From a virus: DNA of 30,757 nt. Shown here one piece after another: positions 4,484-30,023 of this stretch. The stretch is from IMG/VR virus record IMGVR_UViG_3300032265_001771, positions 1 through 30,757 of that record; one strand, 5' to 3'. The notes below the pieces were generated by a model. That model did not search any database and was not told where the DNA came from. It saw nothing but the letters and a program-made list of their open reading frames with translations. Positions within the stretch are counted from its first letter, which is position 1. Every line of letters begins with the position of its first letter. Made by a program: the position numbers and the translations under genes.

Positions 4484-6024
4484 CCCCCGATTACCTCAAG
4501 GGCAAGCTGAGCTACGGCCCTGAGTTCGCCGATTGGTGCGCCGAGAACCTCGTGCTCTCGGTCGACCAGTTCGCCGGCAAGCCGATGGTGCTTGAGCCCT
4601 TTCAAGCTGACTTCATGACCGAGGCACTGGCCGTTGATGACCAGGGCGACTTCCGCTGGAACTCGATCTGCCTGGTGCTGCCGCGCAAGAACGCGAAGAC
4701 GCATCTGCTCGCCGCCTACGCGCTCTGGTCCCTGCTCGAGATGGACGGAAGCCCCGAGATCCTGCTGGCGGCCGCCTCCGACCGTCAGGCCGGGCGCCTG
4801 TTTGAGGCAGTGGTCGCGTTCATCCGCCAAAACCCCGACCTGATGGAGCGCGTGGTGCTGCGCGAATACATCGGCGAGGTCGCCCGGGCCGACGGCATGG
4901 GCAAGATCCTCCGCATGTCGTCAAGCCCGGAGCGGCTTCACGGCTACGGGCCGAGCTTGGTGATCTGTGACGAGGTCGCGCAGTGGACGACGCCGAACCT
5001 CCGCAAGGCGTGGGCGGCGCTCACGACCGGCGGCATGGCCCGCAAGTCGGCCCAGACGTTCACCATCACCACCGCCGGCGAGTCGCACACGCGCGAGTCC
5101 GGGATCCTCGGCCGCCTGATCGACGGCAACGAGGCCGCAGGCGACGTCGAAGAGCGCGGCGCGCTGACGATCTCCCGCAACTTCGACGGGCGCACGCTGG
5201 TCTACCGCTACGAGGCCAAGACCACCGACAAGAACGACATCGCCGCGATCAAGGCCGCAAACCCCGCTTCGTGGATCACCGAAGAGTCGCTCAAGCGTCA
5301 GGCCGCCAATCCAGAACTTTCCGCCGATGAGTATCTTCAGCTGCACGGGAACGTCTGGAGCGACGGCAGCCAGCGGGCGTGGATCGGGCGCGGCGCGTGG
5401 GACCGCCTGATGGTCCCCGACCTGCAGGTGCCCGAAGGCGCAGAACTGTTCATCGGCGTCGACTCCGCGCTGAACGACGACACCCTTGCGATCTCCTGGG
5501 CGTGGCGGTTCCCAGACGACGAGGAGCGCATCGGCGTCAAGTGCCACGTCATCGGCGCGCGCCGCGGCGTGCCCTGTCACGAGCTGGTCGCCGACCGCAA
5601 CCTTGACCCTCGTCAGGCGATCTCAGTGATCGAGCGCCTTCGCGCCGCCGGCCACGACATTCACTCGGTCGCATACGACCCGAACCGTTTCGAGGTCGTC
5701 GCGATGATGCTTGACGAGCTGGGATACACCGTCGTCGATTCGTGGGGCAAGAAAACCAATCAGACGCGCGCATGGGCGTCGTGGTTCGACGGTATCCACA
5801 CCGGCCGCCTCGCCCACGACGGCGATCTGGTGCTGGCCGAGCACGTCACTCACGCGCAGGCCGAGCACACCGAGAACGGCTGGAAGGTCCACAAGCTCCG
5901 CAACCAGCGCGGCGTGAAGATTGACGCCCTGGTCAGTTCCGCGATGGCCGCGTGGCGTTGTCAGGTGGAGCCTGCCGGCGGCGGCTACGTCATGTTCTGG
6001 GACGACACCGAGGTGCCGGCATGA
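4480..6024 (+). CDS. terL: Terminase large subunit
   Basis: DNA-packaging ATPase and nuclease. The first standard start in frame is GTG 4552, but the frame is open upstream and the 24 residues encoded there (LTPDYLKGKLSYGPEFADWC and on) look like the conserved N-terminus. A CTG at 4480 forms a CTGA overlap with the small-subunit stop, just like the GTGA junctions elsewhere, so 4480 is preferred, giving 514 residues. The Walker A variant is RKNAKT (about 69-74), Walker B LVICDE (160-165), the first nuclease acid D328 in FIGVDSALND, and a later acid near D482 (IDALVSSAM). The length is normal for the family. It acts with TerS and the HNH protein at the portal. Confidence 0.93.
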   Translation: MTPDYLKGKLSYGPEFADWCAENLVLSVDQFAGKPMVLEPFQADFMTEALAVDDQGDFRWNSICLVLPRKNAKTHLLAAYALWSLLEMDGSPEILLAAASDRQAGRLFEAVVAFIRQNPDLMERVVLREYIGEVARADGMGKILRMSSSPERLHGYGPSLVICDEVAQWTTPNLRKAWAALTTGGMARKSAQTFTITTAGESHTRESGILGRLIDGNEAAGDVEERGALTISRNFDGRTLVYRYEAKTTDKNDIAAIKAANPASWITEESLKRQAANPELSADEYLQLHGNVWSDGSQRAWIGRGAWDRLMVPDLQVPEGAELFIGVDSALNDDTLAISWAWRFPDDEERIGVKCHVIGARRGVPCHELVADRNLDPRQAISVIERLRAAGHDIHSVAYDPNRFEVVAMMLDELGYTVVDSWGKKTNQTRAWASWFDGIHTGRLAHDGDLVLAEHVTHAQAEHTENGWKVHKLRNQRGVKIDALVSSAMAAWRCQVEPAGGGYVMFWDDTEVPA

Positions 6025-26548: not shown

Positions 26549-26802
26549 CAAGCATGTTGAGCGTTCTAGAGGCCGCCGAGAAAGTGGCGTGCCACCCGGC
26601 GACGATCAGGCGCATGATCCAGCGCGGGCAGATCCCCGCGGTGCGGGTTGGCAGCAGGTGGCGCGTGCCAGCCGAGTCTCTTCAGGCGACATACATGGCC
26701 GCCTCGCAGCCAGCGCCTATCTCGCCTCCCGTTCCTCAAGGGCACTTCGCGCGTCTCGCGCGTGCGCTGCCTGAAACAGGTGGACGTAGTGGTCAAGCAT
26801 GA
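26545..26802 (+). CDS. xis: Excisionase-like HTH protein
   Basis: 85 residues from ATG 26545 (ATGA overlap). Residues 5-48 are a MerR-like winged HTH of the excisionase/HTH_17 type: LSVLEAAEKVACHPATIRRM, then IQRGQIPAVRVGSRWRVPAE. The tail is Pro/Ser-rich. It converges with the integrase and overlaps it by 86 nt, the classic neighbour of a phage integrase. The symbol is given by analogy. It is transcribed with the early operon, so excision would be switched on when repression fails. Confidence 0.75.
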   Translation: MTSMLSVLEAAEKVACHPATIRRMIQRGQIPAVRVGSRWRVPAESLQATYMAASQPAPISPPVPQGHFARLARALPETGGRSGQA

Positions 26803-27760
26803 CCCGAGTGCTGTGGCCCATGAGCGCAGCTGCGTTCGCGGGATCCATTCGCCTGGTCACGATGAGCTCGGAGGCGCGGGTATGACGCAGGCTGTACGGG
26901 ACGCAGTCGGTTCCGACCGCTTGGCGTGCGGGTGCCCACACCCTGCGCGTCCACATCTTCCAGTTGAGCGGGCCACCCTGCGTGCCGGCCACGATGTAGT
27001 CGTCCGCGTAGTACCTGTCGAGCTTCGACAGATCGGACTCAAGAGGCTCCTCAATCGGGATTGCCCGGAACACGCCGGTCTTGGTGGCGACGGTCTGACC
27101 TTCCTGGACAGTGTCGTAGACGGTCATGATCCCGTCATCGATGTCGCGCCACTGCATCCCGACGACTTCTGCCGGGCGCAGTCCGTGGCGCAGGAATCCG
27201 AAGACCGCCCGGTCACGGTCAGTCGGCATTTGCCGGTACAGCGCGTCGACGACCTCGGGCGGGTAGGCGCGTCGCTGCGGGCGCTGCGTCGGCACCTTGC
27301 CGATCCGGTGGCACGGGTTGTACGGGATCAGGCCGTCGTCAACGGCGACGGTGAGCGCGCTCGACAGCACCGCCATGACGTTGTTTGTGTTGGTGGGCGG
27401 GCTGCCGGCGTTGATGATCTCTGCGCGGAACTCGCGCACACGCTGACGCCCGAGCTGACGGAGTGGCACGTCGCCGATGAACGGCACGATCCACTTGTCA
27501 ATGAGGTGAGCGCGCGACCTTCGCGTGGTCATCGCCCAGGTGCCGGTGGCGAACCACCGTTCCAGAAAGTTCCACAGCAGCTCGGGCGAGGGATCGCTCG
27601 GAGCGAAGGCTCCCATCCTCTTCGACCTGCGCTGAGTCAGGTCGTAGGCAACCGCGTCGTCCTTCAGATCGAAGGTCCGGCCGCGGTTCTTTCCGGCCGC
27701 ATCGCGCCAACGAACGTCGAATACGAGGCCTTTTTTGGTCCTGCGGGGATGTACGGACAT
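26717..27760 (-). CDS. int: Tyrosine integrase
   Basis: 347 residues from the minus-strand ATG at 27760; a TTG at 27769 would add three. The N-terminal arm/core-binding domain (about 60-140) is followed by the catalytic domain: R195 in HGLRPAEV, K227 (TKTG), Y289-S-L-R292-H (the first HxxR position is Tyr, a common variant), H316 in LMGHS and the nucleophile Y325 in DHYVHL. It recombines attP with a host attB. The tRNA-Val-like attP core lies about 115 nt upstream of its start, a usual int-attP spacing. Confidence 0.93.
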   Translation of the reverse strand: MSVHPRRTKKGLVFDVRWRDAAGKNRGRTFDLKDDAVAYDLTQRRSKRMGAFAPSDPSPELLWNFLERWFATGTWAMTTRRSRAHLIDKWIVPFIGDVPLRQLGRQRVREFRAEIINAGSPPTNTNNVMAVLSSALTVAVDDGLIPYNPCHRIGKVPTQRPQRRAYPPEVVDALYRQMPTDRDRAVFGFLRHGLRPAEVVGMQWRDIDDGIMTVYDTVQEGQTVATKTGVFRAIPIEEPLESDLSKLDRYYADDYIVAGTQGGPLNWKMWTRRVWAPARQAVGTDCVPYSLRHTRASELIVTRRMDPANAAALMGHSTRVMLDHYVHLFQAAHARDARSALEEREAR

Positions 27761-27820
27761 GCACCGCAACGTACACAGACGAACGCTGAGATGTGCGACG
27801 AAGTTCTATGCGGCGACATG

Positions 27821-27837
27821 TTGACTAGGAGGTCAAA
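27821..27837. promoter_or_regulatory. Inverted repeat enclosing a strong ribosome-binding site
   Basis: TTGAC (27821-27825) and GTCAA (27832-27836) are inverted and enclose the AGGAGG at 27827-27832, five nt before GTG 27838. The site could be an operator, an integrase arm site or an RNA hairpin that hides the ribosome-binding site. Confidence 0.45.
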
Positions 27838-28485
27838 GTGAAGAATGTGCCGATTTGCAGGACTTCCGAGGAGTGGGCGTTGACGGGTTCGAACCGCCGA
27901 CCCCCAGCTTGTCGAAGCGCCTCGGTGCTGTTCGCAAGCGTCGCGGATAGTGCTCGTTCTGCCCATGTAGACGGCGGTTCCGTCGGTTCCCTGGCTGCTC
28001 GACTGCGCGGCAAGTTCGCGGCAGTTTCGGCACCAATGTTCGTCGCGTGTTCTATCGGACTGCTTGCGAGTTGGGGGTCACTTCCCGCCACTGCGGCTCC
28101 GTGCGCGAAGCACACCGGGTCCGCCAAGGTCGCGTGCGTCAAGCAGGCCAAGCGCGACGCAATGCCCTACCCACCCAACCCGTCGTGGCGTGAGGCTACC
28201 CGCCGTGTAAGCGCCTACGACCTCGCCACGGCGGAGCGCGTGAGCGGGTGCGAGGAGCCGGGCTCAGAGCACGGTACCGGCAAGGGCGCGTCCCCCTGGG
28301 CACGTCGCTGGTCGCTGAGCGGCAGCGGCTACGTGTCCGGGTTCGGCATGGCGAACTCGACCTACGGCATCGGCGCGCGGATCACCGGCTATCCCTACCC
28401 GCCTGAGGCGTCCCCGGCTCAGCAGCTGTTGGTGGCAGTCGCCGGCGCACACTCGTTTGGCTGGAGCGGATGGGGGTGCTTTTGA
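27838..28485 (+). CDS. Secreted Rpf/lysozyme-like protein whose ORF contains attP
   Basis: 215 residues from GTG 27838, which has AGGAGG with 5-nt spacing. An in-frame ATG at 28036 has no ribosome-binding site but would place a signal peptide at the N-terminus (MFVACSIGLLASWGSLPATA, then APC). The mature part resembles actinobacterial transglycosylase/Rpf-like domains: a possible catalytic Glu in VSGCEEPGSE, WSLSGSGYVSGFGMANSTYG, EASPAQQLLVAVAGAHSFGW and a final WGCF. Codons 13-26 are antisense to the tRNA-like attP core. If 27838 is used in the free phage, integration would separate the start and ribosome-binding site from the rest. The role is likely cell-wall remodelling or lysogenic conversion. 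Confidence 0.6.
   Translation: MKNVPICRTSEEWALTGSNRRPPACRSASVLFASVADSARSAHVDGGSVGSLAARLRGKFAAVSAPMFVACSIGLLASWGSLPATAAPCAKHTGSAKVACVKQAKRDAMPYPPNPSWREATRRVSAYDLATAERVSGCEEPGSEHGTGKGASPWARRWSLSGSGYVSGFGMANSTYGIGARITGYPYPPEASPAQQLLVAVAGAHSFGWSGWGCF
27874..27913 (-). other. attP: Phage attachment core (attP), 3' part of a tRNA-Val-like sequence
   Basis: Read on the minus strand this is the 3' half of a tRNA: the end of an anticodon loop (GACAA), 3' anticodon strand GCTGG, variable loop GGGTC, T-arm GGCGG-TTCGAAC-CCGTC, acceptor strand AACGCCC and discriminator A. The GGTCGGCGGTTCGAACCCGTC element and acceptor strand fit actinobacterial tRNA-Val. No 5' half is present, so it is not a functional tRNA gene. 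Integrases commonly target tRNA 3' ends and carry this segment to restore the gene. Its exact ends cannot be fixed without attB. Confidence 0.75.
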
Positions 28486-30023
28486 ATGACCACGCCCTCA
28501 CCTGCGGATCACTCTTCTCAGGCGTCGGAGGAATGGACATCGGCCTTGCATGGGCCGGGTTCCGACACCTCTTCTTCGCCGAGATTGACCCCTACTGCCG
28601 CGCAGTCCTTGCCACCAGGTTCCCCGGCGTCCACATCTATGACGACGTGCGAAACGTGGCACTTCCGAACGAGGGAAACGGGAGCCTGCATCGAGAAAGT
28701 GGATCTGCCAAACGTCAGTCGGGCGAGCGTGGGTGGGAGTGGCGGGGCGAAACTGATGATCGCCTTGATCTCCTCTGCGGAGGCTTCCCCTGCCAAGACC
28801 TCTCCGTCGCAGGGAAGCGCGCCGGACTCGCAGGGGAGCGCAGCGGCCTCTTCCACGAGTTCATGCGAATCGCTGACGCTCTTCGACCCCGCGCCATCCT
28901 TGTGGAGAACGTCGAGGGGCTCTACTCCAGCAACGGCGGCCGGGATTTCGGAGTCGTCCTCAACGCGCTGGCCGAGCGCGGGTATCTGGTCAGCTGGCGC
29001 ACTCTTGACGCGCAGCATTTCGGTGTGCCCCAGCGGCGACGCCGAGTGTTTGTGTGCGCCGTCCTTGACGGAGATCCTGGAGCCAAACGCATCGGAGAGG
29101 TACTCGCTCTCCAAGAAGGCAGCGACGGGGATCCTCCGACGAGCGACCCGGCGTGGCCGCTCTCTGCCGCCGGCGCTGGAGCAGGCGCTACGGGCGGTGG
29201 CGGAGTCAACGCCGTGAACGTAGAGAGAGAGAGAGAGTCATTCCCGCCGTCACCGCCAAGTGGGCGAAGGGCAGCGGAGGCCCAGCCGGGGACGAGTGTC
29301 AGAACCTCGTGTGGCCGGAACTCTGACAGCGACCTACGGAGAGCAGTCAGGTCAGGACATGGGCCCGAGCGGAGCTGGCCTGGTCTGGCCGTGGGATCAG
29401 AGAGAGAGAGTCGTGAGTGCCTTGACCTCAAGCATTCAGAATGGGGCGGACGTGCGGAACGCGCAGGCCGGCCACCTGATCGTCGAGCAGACGAGTGGCG
29501 AGGTGTCGGAGTGAACCCCGGCAACGAGGACATCGCGGGCACCTTGCCGAGTAACGCGCAGGGGGGGCAGCGCACCACCGACATCGCGGGCGCCTACGTC
29601 TACCGCAAGAGCGCGCGGGTCAGTGGACCAGGTACGCCAGAGACGTTGGTTGATGACGGCATCGCCAACACGCTCAATAGCTTTGACGTTGGCGACGTGC
29701 GAACGACGCACGCGCTCGTGACGGCGTTCGCTCAGAACCAGCGCGAAGAGGTGCGCGACCCTGAGGACAGGGCTGGCGCGCTTTCGGCGTCAGGTGGAAC
29801 GCATCAAGCCACCTACGTCGCCGAGCATCACCGTCCAACCGTGCGACGCCTCACGCCGCTTGAGTGCGAGCGCCTCATGGGTTTTCCGGACGGGTGGACC
29901 GACATCCCATGGAACGGCAAAGACCACGCCCCCGACTCGCGGCGCTATGCGGCCTGCGGGAATGGCGTGGTCTCGCCTGTCGCCTACTGGATCGGGGCGC
30001 GGCTTGCGGAGGTGCTCAAGTGA
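28470..30023 (+). CDS. dcm: DNA (cytosine-5) methyltransferase, variable region frame-scrambled
   Basis: 517 residues from ATG 28470, overlapping the secreted-protein gene by 16 nt; GTG 28476 or TTG 28482 are alternatives. C5-methyltransferase motifs in order: I SLFSGVGG (14-21), IV GFPCQDLS with nucleophile C108, VI ENVEG (146-150), VIII QHFGVPQRRRR (182-192), IX RRLTPLECERLMGFP (459-473) and X NGVVSPVAYW near 497. The segment 257-347 (29238-29511) is open, but the recognisable recognition-domain sequence there lies in the other two frames, flanked by AG repeats. The protein would methylate cytosines in a short site, probably to evade host restriction. No partner endonuclease is seen. Confidence 0.85.
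   Translation: MGVLLNDHALTCGSLFSGVGGMDIGLAWAGFRHLFFAEIDPYCRAVLATRFPGVHIYDDVRNVALPNEGNGSLHRESGSAKRQSGERGWEWRGETDDRLDLLCGGFPCQDLSVAGKRAGLAGERSGLFHEFMRIADALRPRAILVENVEGLYSSNGGRDFGVVLNALAERGYLVSWRTLDAQHFGVPQRRRRVFVCAVLDGDPGAKRIGEVLALQEGSDGDPPTSDPAWPLSAAGAGAGATGGGGVNAVNVERERESFPPSPPSGRRAAEAQPGTSVRTSCGRNSDSDLRRAVRSGHGPERSWPGLAVGSERESRECLDLKHSEWGGRAERAGRPPDRRADEWRGVGVNPGNEDIAGTLPSNAQGGQRTTDIAGAYVYRKSARVSGPGTPETLVDDGIANTLNSFDVGDVRTTHALVTAFAQNQREEVRDPEDRAGALSASGGTHQATYVAEHHRPTVRRLTPLECERLMGFPDGWTDIPWNGKDHAPDSRRYAACGNGVVSPVAYWIGARLAEVLK
29222..29237. repeat. (AG)8 dinucleotide tract in the methyltransferase gene
   Basis: Sixteen bases of perfect AG repeat. The frame carrying recognisable methyltransferase sequence changes here from the main frame to the -1 frame. 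Gain or loss of one AG unit would have that effect. Confidence 0.9.
29399..29410. repeat. (AG)6 dinucleotide tract in the methyltransferase gene
   Basis: Twelve bases of perfect AG repeat, 161 nt beyond the first tract and within the same variable region. Confidence 0.9.

Follow-up and report, generated by a model that had tools for sequence, protein, structure and literature searches.

The window, i.e., the whole 30,757-nucleotide stretch of viral DNA analyzed here (IMG/VR record IMGVR_UViG_3300032265_001771), carries a leftward tyrosine integrase gene and a rightward gene for a putative secreted enzyme, with a tRNA-derived core of a phage attachment site (attP) lying inside the 5' part of the enzyme reading frame. 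The features, in order along the window, are:

26717-27769, minus strand: tyrosine integrase (Pfam PF00589, 4.7e-12; PHROG phrog_1, 5.4e-44)
27778-27802, no strand: candidate left (P) arm of attP, with GACGAA at 27778 and 27797; weak
27821-27836, no strand: inverted repeat TTGAC-TAGGAG-GTCAA enclosing the Shine-Dalgarno site, from the sequence
27827-27832, plus strand: Shine-Dalgarno AGGAGG, spaced 5 bases from GTG 27838
27838-27873, plus strand: GTG start; 12 codons precede the core, on its integrase side (9 codons in the related phages L003 and L005)
27874-27915, minus strand: attP core, a tRNA-Val(GAC) 3' half that runs from the anticodon loop TCGACAA (27909-27915) to the acceptor end
27916-27999, plus strand: N-terminal extension, read as the right (P') arm of attP in frame
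28000-28092, plus strand: predicted signal peptide LRGKFAAVSAPMFVACSIGLLASWGSLPAT, limits approximate, from alignment with relatives
28039-28044, no strand: candidate right arm repeat, a third GACGAA/TTCGTC copy; weak
28093-28485, plus strand: predicted mature Rpf/lysozyme-like domain and stop, from an AlphaFold2 model and the C-E motif

The Phage_integrase domain (PF00589) of the integrase scores 46.5 bits against a cut-off of 27.1, and R198, R295-H296, H319 and Y328 are invariant across alignments, as expected of a tyrosine integrase; its start is probably ATG 27760. The core matches bacterial tRNA-Val genes of other records. L035 has a chromosomal tRNA-Val(GAC) gene with the same anticodon loop (TCGACAA) as the core, and ARAGORN calls a chimera of its 5' half and the core tRNA-Val(gac). 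Neither ARAGORN nor Rfam detects a complete tRNA in the window, as expected of half a tRNA. The initial annotation had placed this core at 27874-27913, correct to within two bases, and inside an open reading frame, which is borne out: the antisense tRNA half is read in frame 0, beginning exactly 12 codons past GTG 27838. Strand exchange within the anticodon loop is common among tyrosine integrases with tRNA targets; in the window, it most likely takes place at 27909-27915, about 24 codons into the frame.

The start proposed earlier, AGGAGG at 27827-27832 followed by GTG 27838 and a frame whose stop ends at 28485, is confirmed at the same coordinates. The rightward frame spans 215 codons, and the nearest in-frame stop 5' of the GTG is at 27826-27828. 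The anti-Shine-Dalgarno duplex of GTG 27838 has an energy of -11.4 kcal/mol, within the best 1.7% of the window's ATG, GTG and TTG codons; GTG 27925 and ATG 28036, at -1.4 and -2.8 kcal/mol, have essentially no Shine-Dalgarno. Under a Markov null, a start this good followed by an open frame has P = 0.009 in the window alone. Codon usage at 27913-28035 is poor: the mean log-odds is -0.12, to be read against a 1st percentile of 0.016 for real genes and a 99th percentile of -0.17 for off-frames, so codon bias alone would not call this stretch ahead of the mature domain coding. Judged on the window alone, the case for the long frame is moderate. No sigma-70 promoter was seen upstream of the gene. 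The inverted repeat at 27821-27836 could be an operator or an RNA hairpin.

These data bear on a simpler account, in which translation of the enzyme begins within the gene body, for instance at ATG 28036, and chance alone has left the upstream stretch, as far as GTG 27838, open. Antisense tRNA frames often are open by chance, and the account is in keeping with the poor codon usage upstream and with the integrase-free homologues described below, which begin at the signal peptide. Yet ATG 28036 has no Shine-Dalgarno of its own, and a signal peptide begun there would lose its positive charges, which lie upstream of this ATG (RLRGK comes just before it).

The product is best read, though not proven, as a secreted Rpf/lysozyme-like muralytic enzyme. 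An AlphaFold2 model of the mature domain (eight relatives) reaches a pLDDT of 76.7 and a pTM of 0.75, and its top PDB matches are RpfB, RpfE and RpfC, with Z of 5.8-6.4 and Foldseek E of about 1. A Cys-Glu (C-E) pair is invariant in the 8 relatives, and a C-terminal W.C motif is also conserved. The likeness to the Rpf catalytic domains (RpfB 5e27/4emn, RpfE 4cge, RpfC 4ow1) lies in the predicted fold, for which they are the best matches, in C-E and W.C, and in secretion; the window protein differs in having no Pfam match, and the similarity amounts to Z of about 6 and 21-24% identity over 70-80 residues. The suggestion of a secreted Rpf/lysozyme-like domain in the initial annotation fits the signal peptide, the best matches of the predicted fold and C-E, but finds no support in family assignment: the window protein and four relatives match no Pfam family. 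A match of the L016 protein to PF22573, the sole hit among six proteins, is below the cut-off and implausible.

The anatomy of the window recurs elsewhere, in temperate phages known solely from metagenomes. In five further phages, reached by integrase or enzyme similarity and not chosen for layout, an integrase adjoins a homologous gene. L003/L004 and L005 were found via the integrase, which is 47 and 45% identical to that of the window, respectively; L013, L014 and L025 were found via the enzyme, and their integrases, divergent from and adjacent to the enzyme gene, form a second family about 21-28% identical to the first. L003 and L005 have a tRNA-Gly(CCC) 3' half as core, with chimeras called tRNA-Gly(ccc), and a Shine-Dalgarno start lies exactly 9 codons before the tRNA-Gly half, in the same antisense frame as in the window; in L003/L004 and L005, the frame is open from that start to the signal peptide and the homologous enzyme. 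No attachment core was found in L013, L014 and L025, and their start may lie on either side of the crossover. In all six phages, the start with the best Shine-Dalgarno lies far ahead of the signal peptide, and the frame is open through the attP region. Recurrence with a tRNA-Gly target, and with another integrase family in which the core was not located, strongly supports the anatomy. A stretch shared by L013, L014 and L025, AGCTGGTT, was also noted.

The Shine-Dalgarno is weaker in L005, L013 and L025 (-8.1 to -8.7), and, since it shares a purine-rich composition with the arm repeats, it may partly be an arm site. The start has been kept across a substitution: the GTG start of L013 is GGG in L025, where an in-frame ATG two codons on replaces it, and the two sequences show no indel over 204 bp. 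Ahead of the mature domain, L025 has no other start codon, and L014 has only one, inside the hydrophobic core of the signal peptide. No ordinary internal start would yield a complete signal peptide in these two phages; unless a rare start codon is used, secretion of the protein as such requires the upstream start. The joint Markov null over the six loci is about 2e-10, a value that overstates significance because the loci share ancestry and are not fully independent; dropping the non-independent loci weakens this result but does not remove it. A chance open frame was rejected on the strength of the start, the six-locus null and the absence of usable internal starts in L025 and L014, and initiation within the body of the gene is accordingly held to be improbable.

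Repeats resembling arm-type integrase sites surround the start and core region on both sides. GGGGAGA copies flank it in L013 (7 of 7), L014 (5 of 6) and L025 (4 of 6); in L005, 6 of 11 copies of GGGGAA cluster around it, and L003 has four copies of CCGAAC there. In the window, GACGAA occurs three times in the region, against 0.2 expected, and is a weak candidate for the arm repeat. Since arm-type repeats fall inside the extension, the best reading is that it is the right attP arm, translated into protein. Between L013 and L025, its codons differ by 6 synonymous and 26 replacement changes out of 44; judging from this comparison, the amino acids are not conserved, and the start and the open frame are what is kept.

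Homologues with no integrase at the gene are built differently. In L002, L015 and L016, the start codon stands directly at the signal peptide and has a good Shine-Dalgarno; L027 begins there with a weaker one, and L020 probably does so with a CTG. In L026, the integrase is 1.5 kb off, and an attP with the 5' half of tRNA-Gly(CCC) lies outside the enzyme gene. The extension is absent where no integrase adjoins the 5' end of the gene, and therefore goes with attP. Relatives beginning at the signal peptide and lacking a prior frame, which the initial annotation had set against the long frame, thus do exist, but they are confined to loci without an integrase at the 5' end.

Three relatives have features of their own. 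In L020, the CTG follows GGGAGG at about position 5928, where L016 has TTG, and no integrase is seen at the gene. At 1214-2600 of L026, the integrase is related to the others, and it is the 5' half of the tRNA-Gly gene, not the 3' half, that lies between int and the next gene. In L019, a serine integrase lies beside the gene, and the enzyme ATG is inside an inverted repeat, GTCCCGAA..CATACG / CGTATTCGGGAC (2620-2700), that resembles a serine-integrase attP; here too, attP may touch the start of the gene.

The association of the extension with a neighboring integrase can be understood with no switch at all: the upstream start and the attP overlap would both be real, the integrase module would simply adjoin the gene, and loss of the enzyme in the lysogen would be neutral. 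Compact gene overlaps are common in phages, and an extension that is not conserved as protein and is absent without an adjacent integrase looks tolerated rather than used. The presence of two integrase families and the kept start codons, on the other hand, ask for selection keeping the gene translatable, although an enzyme required in lytic growth alone would be under such selection as well. On balance, we regard this neutral arrangement as somewhat unlikely.

We favor, at a probability of about 0.55, a model in which the 5' end of the enzyme gene contains attP and the enzyme is made only from excised DNA. In the excised form, translation would run from GTG 27838 through the antisense tRNA-Val half and the right arm of attP into the signal peptide. 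Recombination in the anticodon loop of the host tRNA-Val gene would integrate the phage, and the phage 3' half would restore the host tRNA. The Shine-Dalgarno, the GTG and about 24 codons would then stay beside int, and the signal peptide and enzyme, bereft of a Shine-Dalgarno, would be joined to host DNA downstream of the tRNA. Expression of the enzyme, and perhaps also of the rightward genes behind it, would thus be limited to excised DNA, and the integrated int would fall behind the host tRNA promoter. The broader proposition, that phages with more than one integrase family place the start beyond attP, make the enzyme translatable only in the non-integrated state and keep the frame across Val and Gly cores, stands at about even odds.

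The initial annotation had likewise proposed that the crossover would part the start and ribosome-binding site from the gene body. The anatomy behind this proposal recurs in other phages, but neither attL nor attR was seen in the genomes searched; with no prophage junction there, we infer the switch from the geometry. Profiles of the integrase and the enzyme, and the pattern of the core, revealed no attL/attR, attB or host in the sampled genomes, which possibly lack the host. The integrase profile search of genome contigs yielded no prophage, and the enzyme profile search yielded two contigs from metagenome-assembled genomes (MAGs), L019 and L020. Among 396 genomes of the phylum of G001, the enzyme profile retrieved G001 itself and four weak matches, the strongest of which, L030, was rejected as a prophage: it is a chromosomal gene with no phage genes beside it. 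Integrase profiles found no prophage of this layout in the same 396-genome sample or in the family of G145. Their best matches, L034 and L035 (about 37-38% identical), lie in chromosomal elements and were set aside because the arrangement differs: the tRNA half sits at the 3' end of int, so that its antisense strand encodes the C-terminal peptide of the integrase (for example, GLEPATSTLPA). The core pattern had no match in viral contigs, nor, with up to 2 mismatches, in three genome samples. Phage records contained no relative of the enzyme and only distant integrases.

Alternatively, the body of the gene could be expressed in the prophage from a host start or promoter at attR, i.e., as lysogenic conversion. 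The gene would lie at a prophage end, and cargo genes are often found at such ends. However, this expression would rely on whatever host sequence lies there, and the existence of homologues in phages that have no integrase beside the gene suggests that the enzyme acts in the infection itself; we consider lysogenic conversion very improbable.

Under the excision-dependent model, the layout would work like several known systems. In mycobacteriophage BPs, integration takes 33 residues off the C-terminus of the repressor, activating it (PMC4557955; Broussard et al. 2013). The shared elements are an attP in a phage ORF near a tyrosine integrase and a gene whose viral and prophage forms differ. In the window, however, the gene encodes an Rpf-like secreted enzyme instead of a repressor, attP is at its 5' end, and integration would strip the start and ribosome-binding site, silencing the enzyme, with no trimming of a C-terminal degradation tag. 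Integration-dependent immunity, offered earlier as a precedent, thus fits as regards attP inside an ORF but holds as an analogy only, since BPs cuts the 3' end of a repressor gene; the window does not belong to the BPs system. Genes that the mobile form of Tn916 needs are promoterless in the integrated element and regain their promoter once the ends are joined in the circle (PMC11658703); Tn916 splits a promoter from an operon, whereas the phage layout also splits the start codon from the coding sequence. When ICEKp1 integrates behind a tRNA gene, int comes under the promoter of that host gene (PMC13023037), which the window geometry would fit, but the effect there is on int and not on a second gene across attP. 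A phage late gene interrupted by a helper-embedded PICI is expressed only once the element is excised (PMC10111431); there a satellite interrupts the gene, and here the phage's own attP would. No matching case was found in the literature searched, which left out most subscription papers. Relative to known integration-dependent control, truncation at the 5' rather than the 3' end and of an enzyme rather than a repressor would be new.

If the model is correct, expression of a potentially harmful enzyme would be tied to the physical state of the genome with no repressor: integration itself would turn the gene off, and excision would turn it on again. An attachment site and a coding sequence would be evolving on shared bases, where the antisense tRNA strand is kept open as a reading frame. 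The resulting signature (a Shine-Dalgarno, about 10 codons, a tRNA half, arm repeats and a signal peptide) is searchable and could be used in other temperate phages; because gene callers may misplace such starts, it would also aid correct annotation.

Several of these phages carry, downstream of the enzyme, a DNA C5-methyltransferase gene with dinucleotide tracts. The tracts, (AG)8, (AG)6, (AC)9, (GA)7 and (CT)10, lie at 29222-29237 and 29399-29410 in the window, at 4903 and 5037 in L013, and at 2005 in L005; from their sequence, the methyltransferase is possibly phase-variable.
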